Assembly (NCBI GenBank): GCA_947474065.1 | Contig: CANJHD010000003.1 | Span: 1 to 64,000, forward strand | From: Planctomycetaceae bacterium | GTDB taxonomy: Bacteria; Planctomycetota; Phycisphaerae; Phycisphaerales; SM1A02 | Direction: 5' to 3' | Length of the DNA stretch: 64,000 bases | Shown here: positions 3 to 2,855 of the stretch, piece after piece | Layout of the letters: every line of letters begins with the position of its first letter | Position numbering within the stretch: the first letter of the stretch is position 1 | The notes under the pieces: generated by a model | Told to the model about the DNA's origin: nothing | What the model saw: the letters and a program-made list of their open reading frames with translations, nothing else | Database searches by the model: none | Made by a program: the position numbers and the translations under genes

Positions 3-962
3 TCAGGATGGTGCGGATCTGAACCGACTGGCGACGGCATTCATCTGCACTATTGGGCGTTTTCAAACCTTTGTTGGAATGACTTCTCGGGGACGGACGC
101 AATTACGAACACACTCATCGTTGAATGGTCCGCCGACTGCAACAACGACGGCATCGTCGACTACGGCCAATGCCACAATGGCACGCTTGACGACTACAAC
201 ATCAACAACATCCCCGATTGCTGCGAGCGCGGGGAGGCGTGTGTTGTTGGCAGTTATCCAGTGCAGTGGCGCGCCGAGGACGGCGGAAACAGCCACTGGT
301 ATTTCTTCAATTGGATTCACGACACTGGCCCAGCTGGAGTTTGTTGGCCGGATGCGCGACAGCGCTCGATCGCCACGGGTGGTGAACTTGTTTCGTTGGC
401 CTCGGCAAGTGAGGCTCAATTCATTGTGGATTGTTTCTGCCCTGGTCCTGGTAGCGAATTTGGTTGGATGGGAAATCTTGGTTGGCTTGGATACCAAGGG
501 ACCCCAGTATGGTCCGACGGCGAACCAGTGACCTACACCAACTGGTACCCCGGTCAACCAAGCGGTGATGGACCATACGTGGCGATGGGTTGCCAGACTG
601 CTTGGAACGATATTGGTGGAAGCGGCGGGTGTCACAGTTCATCAGAGTTACCGCTCAGTTTCTGGGTGACCGAATGGTCCGCCGACTGCAACAACGACAA
701 CATCGTCGACTACGGCCAAATCCTCACCGGCCAACTCGCTGACTCCAACACTAACGGCATCCCCGATATCTGTGAACAACCACAGTGCCAAGACGCCGAC
801 ATCACTAACAACCACATCATTGATGGTGCAGATCTTGGTGCCCTGCTCGCATTCTGGGGACCAGTCAATCCAGTGTTGCCACAGGCTGACGTCAATCGAG
901 ATGGTCAGGTCAATGGCGCAGACATTGGCATCCTGCTCTCGTACTGGGGCCCGTGCCCATAA
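3..962 (+). CDS. Secreted C-type-lectin-like protein with dockerin (5' end outside window)
   Basis: The reading frame is open from the left edge, so the start and signal peptide lie outside; 319 residues are visible. It contains the end of one lectin-like module, a Cys-rich calcium-type repeat (DCNNDGIVDYG...IPDCCE, visible residues ~44-78), a second module beginning VQWRAEDGG (~87-220) with the C-type-lectin hallmarks WSDG, TNWYPGQP and WNDI, a second DCNNDNIVDYG repeat, and a C-terminal dockerin with two EF-hand-like loops (IIDGADLGALLAFWGP and VNRDGQVNGADIG) ending YWGPCP. The module start and whole domain order recur in the protein at 2040-2855. Inferred role: extracellular ligand binding with dockerin-mediated attachment. 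An internal GTG at 261 is unlikely to be the start because the upstream frame encodes recognisable domains. Confidence 0.85.
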   Translation, partial: SGWCGSEPTGDGIHLHYWAFSNLCWNDFSGTDAITNTLIVEWSADCNNDGIVDYGQCHNGTLDDYNINNIPDCCERGEACVVGSYPVQWRAEDGGNSHWYFFNWIHDTGPAGVCWPDARQRSIATGGELVSLASASEAQFIVDCFCPGPGSEFGWMGNLGWLGYQGTPVWSDGEPVTYTNWYPGQPSGDGPYVAMGCQTAWNDIGGSGGCHSSSELPLSFWVTEWSADCNNDNIVDYGQILTGQLADSNTNGIPDICEQPQCQDADITNNHIIDGADLGALLAFWGPVNPVLPQADVNRDGQVNGADIGILLSYWGPCP

Positions 963-1008
963 GCGCAGTGCCACGACATCTGGCGCCTGAACTATTCTCA
1001 GCGCCCCG

Positions 1009-1755
1009 GTGGAAACAGATCACTTCCCAAGCACTCACGCCACGTGGATCGATGCGCAGTTAACAATCGCTGAGCGTGGTGACGTGGATCCAGCGCATCC
1101 AATGAACGCCAGTGCGGCCGCCGCCGCGCGCGCTGCTCTGCGGCGCCACCTCATGGAGCGCTACTACGACGCGCTGCGAATCTATGTGCGAACAAGCGCG
1201 CTGATTCGACTGGGCGAGCCAGAAGAAATCGTTGCGGAGTTCTTCGTCCGAGCGGTCGATGCTCCGGATTTCCTGCGGCGCTGGCGCGATTCAAAGATGC
1301 CACTGCGTCGATGGATGATGAATGCCATGGCATTTCATTGCCGAGGTGAACTGCGCGATCAGAACCGGTCGCGCGGTCGAATAGTGGGTGGCGATGGCCT
1401 AAATACACTGAAATCAGACGCTGTTGATCCAGCGCGCGCCTTCGACCATGCGTGGGCTGTAGCGCTCGCAAACGAAGCGATGTCGATCGCCATTGCTGAT
1501 GCTGATGAGCGTGGTCGTCCAAATGATGCGCTAGCATTTCGCTTGCATGTCATTGATGGGGTGTCCTATCGATCCATCGCTGCGCAGCTTTCTATGAGTA
1601 TTGCACAGGCCGAACACGCTGCGCGCCGGGTGAGTGACCGCATGCGCGAAGCTGTACGCGAAATTTTGCGCGAAGAAGGGGTGCTTCCACATGCGATGGA
1701 TGCTGCTCTCGCTGAAGTACTGCTACTTGTTGACGAGGCTGCAGGTGAGCCATGA
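1009..1755 (+). CDS. ECF-type RNA polymerase sigma factor
   Basis: A 248-residue protein with a divergent sigma-70 layout. A region-2-like helical segment (residues ~65-120, including RRWMMNAMAFHCRGELRDQNR-type basic sequence) is followed by a region-4-like helix-turn-helix (~185-215, core GVSYRSIAAQLSMSIAQAEH). It begins with GTG. Its TGA overlaps an ATG at 1752 (ATGA). It lies between two genes for related lectin/dockerin secreted proteins, so those may be its targets; that is inference. No classical anti-sigma domain is recognisable next to it, although the overlapping frame encodes one hydrophobic segment (see 1752-2039). The sequence is too divergent to assign an ECF group by eye. Confidence 0.75.
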   Translation: METDHFPSTHATWIDAQLTIAERGDVDPAHPMNASAAAAARAALRRHLMERYYDALRIYVRTSALIRLGEPEEIVAEFFVRAVDAPDFLRRWRDSKMPLRRWMMNAMAFHCRGELRDQNRSRGRIVGGDGLNTLKSDAVDPARAFDHAWAVALANEAMSIAIADADERGRPNDALAFRLHVIDGVSYRSIAAQLSMSIAQAEHAARRVSDRMREAVREILREEGVLPHAMDAALAEVLLLVDEAAGEP

Positions 1756-2039
1756 ACGACCGTCTGCAGGACACTGATCATTCGGCGTGCCCACGTATCG
1801 GCGCTCGACCACTTCGCTGGTCGGCAGTGGTCGTGTCGCGCGGGCTCAGGGCTGGCGCGATGGGTTCAACACCCCACACGCGCTCGACTCACACAAAGCC
1901 CGCGGCGGCCGTGTGTGCAATCCTTGGAGCCTCTCTCCTTGTTGTGGGGGCGGTTCTTATGAAACCAGTGGAATCTTCAGGGATTTCCCCGCGGATTGAC
2001 GGCGCGAACGGCTCTATCGACCCTCACCAGGAGTCAAAC
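1752..2039 (+). other. Stop-free in-frame leader coupled to the sigma factor gene
   Basis: ATG 1752 overlaps the sigma factor stop (ATGA) and opens a frame with no stop for 96 codons, running in frame into the secreted protein that starts at ATG 2040. The leader encodes Arg-rich sequence and one hydrophobic segment (AAAVCAILGASLLVVGAVLM). It could be a small membrane protein that has lost its own stop, an N-terminal extension of the downstream protein, or chance. The strong ribosome binding site and signal peptide at 2040 argue that the extension is not needed for the downstream product. Confidence 0.35.
2029..2033 (+). promoter_or_regulatory. Ribosome binding site deciding the start at 2040
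   Basis: AGGAG sits 6 bases before ATG 2040, which begins a typical signal peptide (MKTLHAFRTAGALGVLAVTQ...). This favours 2040 over the upstream in-frame ATG at 1752. Confidence 0.7.
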
Positions 2040-2855
2040 ATGAAGACGTTGCACGCATTCCGGACAGCAGGCGCCCTTGGCGTACTCGCTGTAACACAGC
2101 TCGCACTCGTTTCCAGGGCGAGCGCGCAGTCGGCCGCTGTGCAATGGCGCGTGGAGGATGGGGGGAATGGGCATTGGTATCGCTTGTCCACAGATCAACC
2201 ATCCATTCAGCAATGGACCCAAAATTCTGCGCCCCTTGGTGCTCCTGGATTCCATCTAGCTGTTGTAAATAACAGTGCTGAAAATGCGCACCTGGTTGAA
2301 ATGATTAGCGCTTATCCGGGGCACGGTTTCTGGATTGGTTACTACAGAATAAATGGAACGACATGGGGGTGGAACATCAATCAGGGATCCACATTCTTGT
2401 TTTGGGGCGGTACAAACTGTGGTGCAGGCCCGTATCCAAACTATGGGTACTCGGGATTCATCGCTGCCTTGTACAACAAGCGCCCTGATTGTGGCTGGAA
2501 CTGGGATGACTTTGCACCAGAAATCACCCCAAACAATTGGCAACTTTTGGAGTATGACGCCGACTGCAACGCCGACAATATCGTCGACTTTGGCCAGTGC
2601 CTCGACGGCTCGCTGCCCGACATCAATGGCAACAACATCCCCGACTGCTGCGAGCAAGGCATTCCATGCTCGCCTTGTTCCGCCTGCGACCTCAACCCCA
2701 CCGGCATCGTCGATGGTGCAGACCTCGGCGCCCTCCTCGCCTTCTGGGGTCCCGTGAGCCCAGCATTCCCACGAGCCGACATCAACCGCGACGGCAACGT
2801 GAACGGCGCCGACCTTGGCCTCCTGCTTGCAAACTGGGGCCCGTGCGGGCTGTAA
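2040..2855 (+). CDS. Secreted C-type-lectin-like protein with dockerin
   Basis: A 271-residue protein. Signal peptide (residues ~1-29, ending SRASAQS), lectin-like module opening VQWRVEDGGNGHWY (~33-175; GFWIGYYRING and WNWDDF correspond to the WIG and WND positions of C-type lectins), one DCNADNIVDFG...IPDCCE repeat (~176-210), and a dockerin-like pair of loops (GIVDGADLGALLAFWGP and INRDGNVNGADLG) ending NWGPCGL. The architecture matches the protein at 3-962 but with a single lectin module. Likely exported and held at the cell surface; the ligand is unknown. The start rests on the AGGAG at 2029-2033 and the signal peptide; the frame is open further upstream to 1752. Confidence 0.8.
   Translation: MKTLHAFRTAGALGVLAVTQLALVSRASAQSAAVQWRVEDGGNGHWYRLSTDQPSIQQWTQNSAPLGAPGFHLAVVNNSAENAHLVEMISAYPGHGFWIGYYRINGTTWGWNINQGSTFLFWGGTNCGAGPYPNYGYSGFIAALYNKRPDCGWNWDDFAPEITPNNWQLLEYDADCNADNIVDFGQCLDGSLPDINGNNIPDCCEQGIPCSPCSACDLNPTGIVDGADLGALLAFWGPVSPAFPRADINRDGNVNGADLGLLLANWGPCGL

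Follow-up and report, generated by a model that had tools for sequence, protein, structure and literature searches.

What does a sigma factor gene do between two genes for lectin- and dockerin-bearing proteins? The question is raised by the first 2,855 nucleotides of contig CANJHD010000003.1 (C3) of the planctomycete assembly GCA_947474065.1 (G000; 2.58 Mb, 133 contigs, ~79% complete), analyzed here within a window of 64,000 nucleotides that starts at base 1 of the contig (G, C, and L numbers are our handles for genomes, contigs, and loci). An earlier reading of the bare sequence, hereafter the sequence-only reading, had recognized in two open reading frames (ORFs) a module beginning VQWR-EDGG, a DCN..IVD.G...IPD.CE repeat, and a C-terminal dockerin, and had placed a sigma factor between the two; all of these are present, the dockerin-like end having two loops. 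Its description of "two secreted proteins" stands only in part: the first protein is incomplete at the contig end, and the second has two starts, at 1752 and 2040, and is more than a single secreted protein translated from 1752. We find at this locus a repeated sigma/lectin/dockerin cassette, present as a complete copy and a truncated one. Its anatomy is established with high confidence, comprising the structure of the unit, its tandem repetition, a coding module linked in frame to the secreted protein, an internal Shine-Dalgarno (SD) sequence and start, the domains and their swapping, and a pairing of cysteines.

How widely is this arrangement shared? Sigma paralogues are repeated in genomes of the same genus, with four copies ~2.5 kb apart in G013, and nearly all same-genus copies that can be read far enough consist of a sigma gene followed by a gene ending in a dockerin, usually with lectin modules. 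This recurrence bears out the earlier view that the sigma factor belongs with the lectin/dockerin gene. In the window, the second lectin/dockerin ORF spans 1752 to 2855 and opens at an ATGA overlap with the sigma stop codon, and the first ORF (3 to 962) encodes a calcium-type repeat, a C-type lectin-like domain, a second calcium-type repeat, and a dockerin ending in WGPCP. The order in G002, sigma, two-lectin/dockerin gene, sigma, lectin/dockerin gene, provides counterparts of both window genes (69% amino acid identity for ORF 3 to 962), so the truncated ORF most likely comes from a preceding unit whose sigma gene lies off the contig. Loci from several other genera of the family have the same architecture. 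Across the units the ectodomain is variable, most often a C-type lectin, and a dockerin is nearly always present; beyond the genus of the window, the ectodomains, named by inspection, are C-type lectin, beta-helix-like, FGE-like (ending in GFRVARNP), LamG-like, and others. The relatives are mostly metagenome-assembled genomes (MAGs), many of them from lakes or ponds.

The link between sigma factor and secreted protein is a stretch of ~70 to 170 open codons, running from the sigma stop codon to the secreted protein and encoding a short hydrophilic segment, one transmembrane (TM) segment, and a linker that often reads GS[ILV]. Ahead of the TM segment stands a recurrent helix-like motif, for example, DRPAARRLA, TRGQMARALREG, or NHEAAARILDL. 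Comparison of positions 1752 to 2039 with orthologues reveals changes mainly at third codon positions and a 3-base indel, indicating that the module is coding. It shares its frame with the secreted protein: in 37 of 39 non-redundant units, this frame contains the strongest TM segment 5' of the internal start. Within 60 codons 5' of the internal start, the frame of the secreted protein (frame 0) carries 3 stops, compared to 24 and 50 in frames 1 and 2, and 32/39 units have their longest open run in frame 0 (p = 5e-10 if one third is expected and relatedness is disregarded). As an internal control, the spacing between sigma stop and internal start keeps to no one frame (20/11/8 modulo 3), which ties the frame link specifically to module and ectodomain. 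At the internal start, an SD match of at least 5 nt occurs in 20 of the 39 units versus 2.6% of control sites, an enrichment indicating that the start is real. The hydrophobicity and SD thresholds behind these counts are simple, starts were assigned by inspection, and the sampled units share ancestry. The gene appears to be under selection both for read-through from the sigma gene and for restart at the signal peptide.

The sigma factor itself matches TIGR02937 over residues 44 to 214 (E = 2.7e-6, below the curated cut-off). Its AlphaFold2 (AF2) model has a mean predicted local distance difference test score (pLDDT) of 85.7 and a fold matching sigmaE/RseA (1or7) and AlgU/MucA (6in7); sigmaE and AlgU are matched over both domains, and region 4 of sigmaE alone gives Z = 8.6 over 69 residues. 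By profile and fold, the protein is an extracytoplasmic function (ECF)-type sigma factor, with sigma-70 regions 2 and 4 and no region 3. A family-wide search found its family in 92 of 181 genomes.

As for the ectodomain, the window proteins score only below threshold for Lectin_C and Dockerin_1 in Pfam. A profile from our alignment A2 detects lectin chains in the PDB with E values down to 4.5e-63 (multi-domain) or ~1e-14 (single domain), and the top Foldseek matches of the predicted lectin model are C-type lectins; for the full lectin/dockerin protein, the AF2 model (mean pLDDT, 64.5) is confident in the dockerin and weak elsewhere. By profile and predicted fold, the ectodomain is a C-type lectin-like domain with putative sugar binding. 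An EPN-type motif is found in several relatives and is absent from the second lectin of the window. Is this domain inherited with the rest of the unit? Between the window and G002, in 60-nt bins, the sigma gene, module, and signal peptide are ~83 to 100% identical; from position 2161, just within the lectin, identity falls to 33 to 58%, and in the dockerin it is 91% again. The lectin of the first ORF is 96.7% identical to that of G009 (L145) and 50% to one in G002, and the lectin is nearly identical between G002 and G010, despite the mosaic sigma gene of the latter. Divergence extends over the entire domain and is not confined to a short variable repeat, so that a diversity-generating retroelement seems a less likely source of the lectin variation. 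Sequence comparison thus points to a conserved signaling core with an exchangeable sensor. The sigma gene of G010 (G010:C3 L147 4264-5013) looks mosaic on its own account, its N-terminal half being ~50 to 66% and its C-terminal half ~80 to 93% identical to the window gene, which suggests recombination between paralogues.

The reading that we favor, at a probability of about 0.5, is that the unit is a sensor cassette of sigma factor, membrane regulator, and lectin, SigI-RsgI-like in plan, with a regulator module of unrecognized type and a nested second start. The sigma factor would be translationally coupled to a dual-start gene, both products of which would be made in vivo. The long product, initiated at the sigma stop codon, is predicted to comprise a short cytoplasmic segment, one TM helix, a linker, and the whole lectin/calcium-repeat/dockerin protein; the short product, initiated at the internal SD sequence and ATG, would carry an ordinary signal peptide in front of the same lectin/dockerin protein and, once exported, would dock on the cell surface. 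In the long form, the cytoplasmic segment may bind the cognate sigma factor and hold it at the membrane. The signal for release, via proteolysis or conformational change, would then be either the capture of a putative ligand by the lectin or the dockerin's docking state, and the freed sigma factor would alter transcription of a presumptive regulon of surface-protein genes.

A comparable system is known from Clostridium thermocellum, in which several paralogous SigI sigma factors are each paired with a bitopic RsgI partner bearing a variable extracellular binding domain (PMC12203970, PMC4711584). Both systems occur in dockerin-rich bacteria and combine sigma paralogues with TM partners of cytoplasmic N terminus, one TM segment, and variable ectodomain, and the RsgI-type layout is present here in a gene directly downstream of the sigma gene, with a predicted cytoplasmic N terminus. 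The parts differ, however. The sigma factor is ECF-like and not a sigmaI, its binding is putative, and no RsgI N-terminal, autocleavage, or other anti-sigma domain is recognizable, with none among the Pfam-A matches of ten modules up to an E value of 1. The ectodomains carry C-type lectins where RsgI proteins carry CBM3, PA14, or GH10 domains, they end in a dockerin, and their genes have a second in-frame start with SD sequence and signal peptide for a secreted form. Because of the lack of an anti-sigma domain, the ECF-like sigma factor, the second start, and the dockerin, we do not file the cassette as RsgI. We propose, more tentatively, that it represents an undescribed class of one-gene receptor and effector, in which one frame would yield a membrane sensor holding its own ECF sigma factor and a secreted, dockerin-bearing copy of its lectin, the tandem copies with their recombination-swapped lectins amounting to a set of sugar-responsive sigma switches in uncultured freshwater planctomycetes. 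If the mechanism holds, planctomycetes with tens of unexplained surface dockerins would have multi-copy sensing like that of SigI/RsgI built from different parts, and sensors could be assigned to sigma factors by sequence alone. A nested in-frame start kept across genera is in any case an unusual gene design.

Several observations weigh against this sensor reading. The lack of any recognized anti-sigma family in the ten modules is the first. Module and secreted gene lie in different frames in two units (G010 L147 and L212), so that fusion is not universal, the G010 exception being due to one additional base directly before the start. In a continuous chain, the TM segment would be followed by a signal-peptide-like segment, and the orientation of the long form in the membrane is then uncertain. 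The source genome, in its ~79% complete assembly, shows a single such sigma gene, no second family member being found there at E <= 0.01, and multiplicity rests on the relatives. In other genera, several sigma relatives are accompanied by a different, soluble partner or by none that was detected, so that the association with a dockerin gene does not extend to the entire sigma family. No promoter specific to the sigma factor was found, and in MAG-based genomes deletions or joins at repeats are possible.

Could the module be something simpler? The alternative that survives best, although we consider it unlikely, is that it is a mere membrane anchor or a translation-coupling leader that tethers the lectin/dockerin protein, with the neighboring sigma factor transcribing the locus and not regulated by the module. 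This would agree with the lack of a recognized anti-sigma domain, with N-terminal sequences that differ greatly in length, and with a dockerin that already offers plausible surface attachment. It accounts less well for a module that accompanies the sigma family across genera with its short pre-TM helix motif and that, in the window, starts within the sigma stop codon. Start/stop overlaps of this kind are common in pairs of sigma and anti-sigma factors. It is improbable that only the long form is made, its second hydrophobic segment being a second TM segment of a two-TM regulator and the internal SD sequence incidental. The continuous frame would permit this, but the internal start shows SD enrichment and conserved start codons, and a second TM segment would put the cysteine-rich, calcium-type ectodomain in the cytoplasm. 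Less credible again is that ordinary secreted lectin/dockerin genes lie beside a sigma gene unrelated to them and that G+C-rich sequence has left the frame 5' of 2040 open by chance; SD sequence and signal peptide at the internal start would indeed suffice alone for a secreted protein, but chance would hardly produce frame linkage in 37/39 units while other frames carry stops, coding-type substitution, and a TM module in all in-frame units.

Another question is the role of the cysteine near the C terminus, which the sequence-only reading had taken as an invariant part of a W-G-P-C end and as a hint of a surface-attachment or sorting route. The actual ends are WGPCP and WGPCGL; the dockerin end is confirmed, but the cysteine is not invariant, occurring within the last four residues in 37 of the 58 proteins of the source genome that end in a dockerin. 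The loop aspartate of the second repeat, the core glycine and aspartate, and the tryptophan are 98 to 100% conserved, far above the cysteine. Its presence follows that of a second cysteine. All alignable terminal-cysteine proteins (35/35) also have a cysteine no more than ~9 residues before the first loop, and the terminal cysteine is found in 35/42 proteins with this N-flanking cysteine versus 0/15 without it (Fisher p = 8e-9). The linker has no cysteine in 39 proteins, two in 16, and one in only 2, the total in the domain being even in 49/57. In the relatives, 26/26 dockerins with the terminal cysteine have the partner, and both are present in those order-wide GC-type dockerins (L240-L269) that were readable in frame and judged by eye, the genus-specific profile being unsuited to cysteine statistics there. 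Paired gain and loss is expected of a disulfide and would not be predicted for a processed sorting cysteine. Most likely, the terminal cysteine and the cysteine preceding the dockerin form a disulfide that joins head to tail.

The pair would be a covalent version of a known structure. Cellulosomal dockerins have a non-covalent head-tail clasp, as outlined in PMC4728124 (citing Slutzki et al. 2013 and Chen et al. 2014); in both cases the two ends of the domain are held together, but the clasp described there is a stacking of Tyr/Pro rings, whereas here it would be a co-varying cysteine pair. This speaks against a lipidation or sorting site, a role that we reject because of the co-variation with the preceding cysteine, and the "GC" of GC-type dockerins, found in ~70% of the sampled genomes of the order, would have a simple structural reason. 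That terminal cysteine and dockerin form a sorting or anchoring signal with a dedicated processing enzyme and a shared sigma-driven promoter is thus hardly tenable: the domain is extremely abundant at C termini and NCBIfam labels it "GC-type dockerin domain-anchored," but the cysteine is missing in 21/58 copies and pairs with a preceding one, some dockerins are internal or N-terminal in proteins ending in other domains, and there is no shared promoter. By the refuting observations that the sequence-only reading itself had named, a C-terminal motif conserved no better than the remainder of the domain and no promoter in common with the sigma gene, the sorting claim falls.

That last point deserves detail. 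The motif TANNNT lies within -19 to -11 of 18/27 sigma genes, mostly at -12/-13 and even inside tandem arrays, and a strong TA[CT]CCT at -12/-13 looked like a sigma-specific promoter. This candidate was rejected, since TANNNT at that position is general in the genome, preceding 66 of 2841 candidate starts (background, ~7 per position), which suggests widespread leaderless transcription with a -10 element in the lineage. For this reason we take the element 5' of the sigma genes to be, most plausibly, a housekeeping promoter of the leaderless type, and autoregulation is unproven. Dockerin genes of the source genome show no enrichment of the -12/-13 element, and the promoter that the earlier reading expected dockerin genes and sigma gene to share was not found. 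By position comparison, no ECF gene lies upstream of the other dockerin genes of this genome.

Is the dockerin itself new? The model segment (pLDDT ~76 to 96) aligns with a Bacteroides cellulosolvens dockerin (2y3n_B; Z = 9.1, root mean square deviation of 1.9 Å over 57 residues), with both calcium-loop/helix repeats of the fold present and D/N-rich loop positions conserved. The window copies score 17.4 and 16.8 bits against Dockerin_1 (PF00404; gathering threshold, 22.9), and 21 of the 27 members of alignment A2 match it at E <= 0.01. Against NF041540 they reach 16.6 to 16.7 bits (cut-off, 29), which two other places in the source genome pass. Some 75 places in the 2.58 Mb genome match the domain, far beyond chance, and the GC-type family occurs in 108/151 sampled genomes of the order, often in >30 copies. 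The GC-type dockerin is thus an ordinary, already named, order-wide family, and the window copies are a divergent form of it, in line with the suggestion that these modules are typical of the lineage and little characterized. With NF041540 "GC-type dockerin domain-anchored protein" they share a C-terminal two-loop dockerin, a cysteine before it and near its end, and many copies per Phycisphaerales genome; unlike it, they end in W-G-x-C and not F-x-x-G-C, and some members in the source genome have lost the cysteine pair.

A receptor for these dockerins may also be at hand. The source genome has a single cohesin match above the Pfam cut-off (G000:C68:1167-1478, E = 2e-5), in a protein with cohesin, HYR-like, and EF-hand parts (G000:C68:957-2585, L163); such domains are rare, and this protein is a possible surface receptor. 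Surface docking, as the sequence-only reading had supposed, is therefore plausible, cohesin-like proteins being present in both source genome and genus. The C68 protein resembles the adaptor in a complex that has been proposed, under the name "planctosome," for freshwater Phycisphaerae (Nemodlikiaceae; Andrei et al. 2019, PMC6461901). Freshwater planctomycetes, dockerin proteins, and a cohesin and HYR-type protein are common to both, but that account, in its available portion, covers peptidases and a cohesin scaffold without mention of sigma/TM/lectin cassettes. Elsewhere in the source genome, ~7 dockerin-type proteins are clustered at G000:C26:18000-32269 (L077); among them are some closely related to the lectin protein of the window and others that have an N-terminal dockerin and end in an FGE-like GFRVARNP domain.

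Table 1. Features of the complete and truncated cassette copies, in window coordinates
Feature	Position	Strand	Basis or remark
3' part of the ectodomain/dockerin gene of the preceding tandem unit	3..962	+	Open at window start (contig end); 5' part and sigma gene off contig
Calcium-type repeat DCNNDGIVDYG...IPDCCE	135..227	+	Sequence
C-type lectin-like domain of the first protein	261..672 (3' limit approximate)	+	Similarity to lectins of G009 and G002; lectin matches in ORF
Second calcium-type repeat DCNNDNIVDYG...IPDICE	685..776	+	Sequence
Dockerin with putative clasp cysteines (N-flanking and terminal WGPC)	786..959	+	Profile; NF041540 16.7 bits, cut-off 29
-10-like TATTCT at leaderless position 5' of sigma start	993..998	+	Element also 5' of other sigma genes
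ECF-type sigma factor gene, GTG start	1009..1755	+	TIGR02937; AF2 model against ECF sigma folds; orthologues and paralogues
Putative membrane-regulator module: cytoplasmic N-terminal stretch, one TM segment, GSI linker	1752..2039	+	Coding-type substitution; in-frame TM segment in 37/39 units; no Pfam family
TM segment AAVCAILGASLLVVGAVLM	1905..1961	+	Kyte-Doolittle mean 2.54 across 19 residues
Internal SD sequence AGGAG	2029..2033	+	SD match enriched at internal starts of units
Internal start and signal peptide MKTLHAF...ASAQ of the secreted form	2040..2129	+	Start codon and second hydrophobic segment conserved in all units; cleavage site predicted
C-type lectin-like domain of the second protein	2142..2535 (3' limit approximate)	+	Profile matches to mannose-receptor-type domains; fold; divergence from orthologues
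Calcium-type repeat DCNADNIVDFG...IPDCCE	2562..2654	+	Sequence
Second dockerin; mature-protein Cys183 (2676-2678) and Cys239 (2844-2846) are the invariant pair	2676..2852	+	Alignment A2; model pLDDT ~76-96 except extreme C terminus; 2y3n_B Z 9.1

Some loci among the relatives depart from the unit. Distant sigma members (L208, L210, L213-L217, and others) are followed by a conserved soluble protein of ~160 amino acids with an end resembling LLDLA..TP.PW..L, without a dockerin gene, and this protein is possibly a different class of partner. An apparent direct fusion of sigma factor and ectodomain-dockerin (L218/L324, one locus; L218 4968-6074) has no TM segment and a truncated sigma factor; it is probably a deletion inside a unit and was not used as evidence. 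In G006:C50 (L149 5702-6300), two small ORFs, which we take to resemble a toxin-antitoxin pair of DUF433/DUF5615 type, are apparently inserted between the sigma gene and the membrane module.

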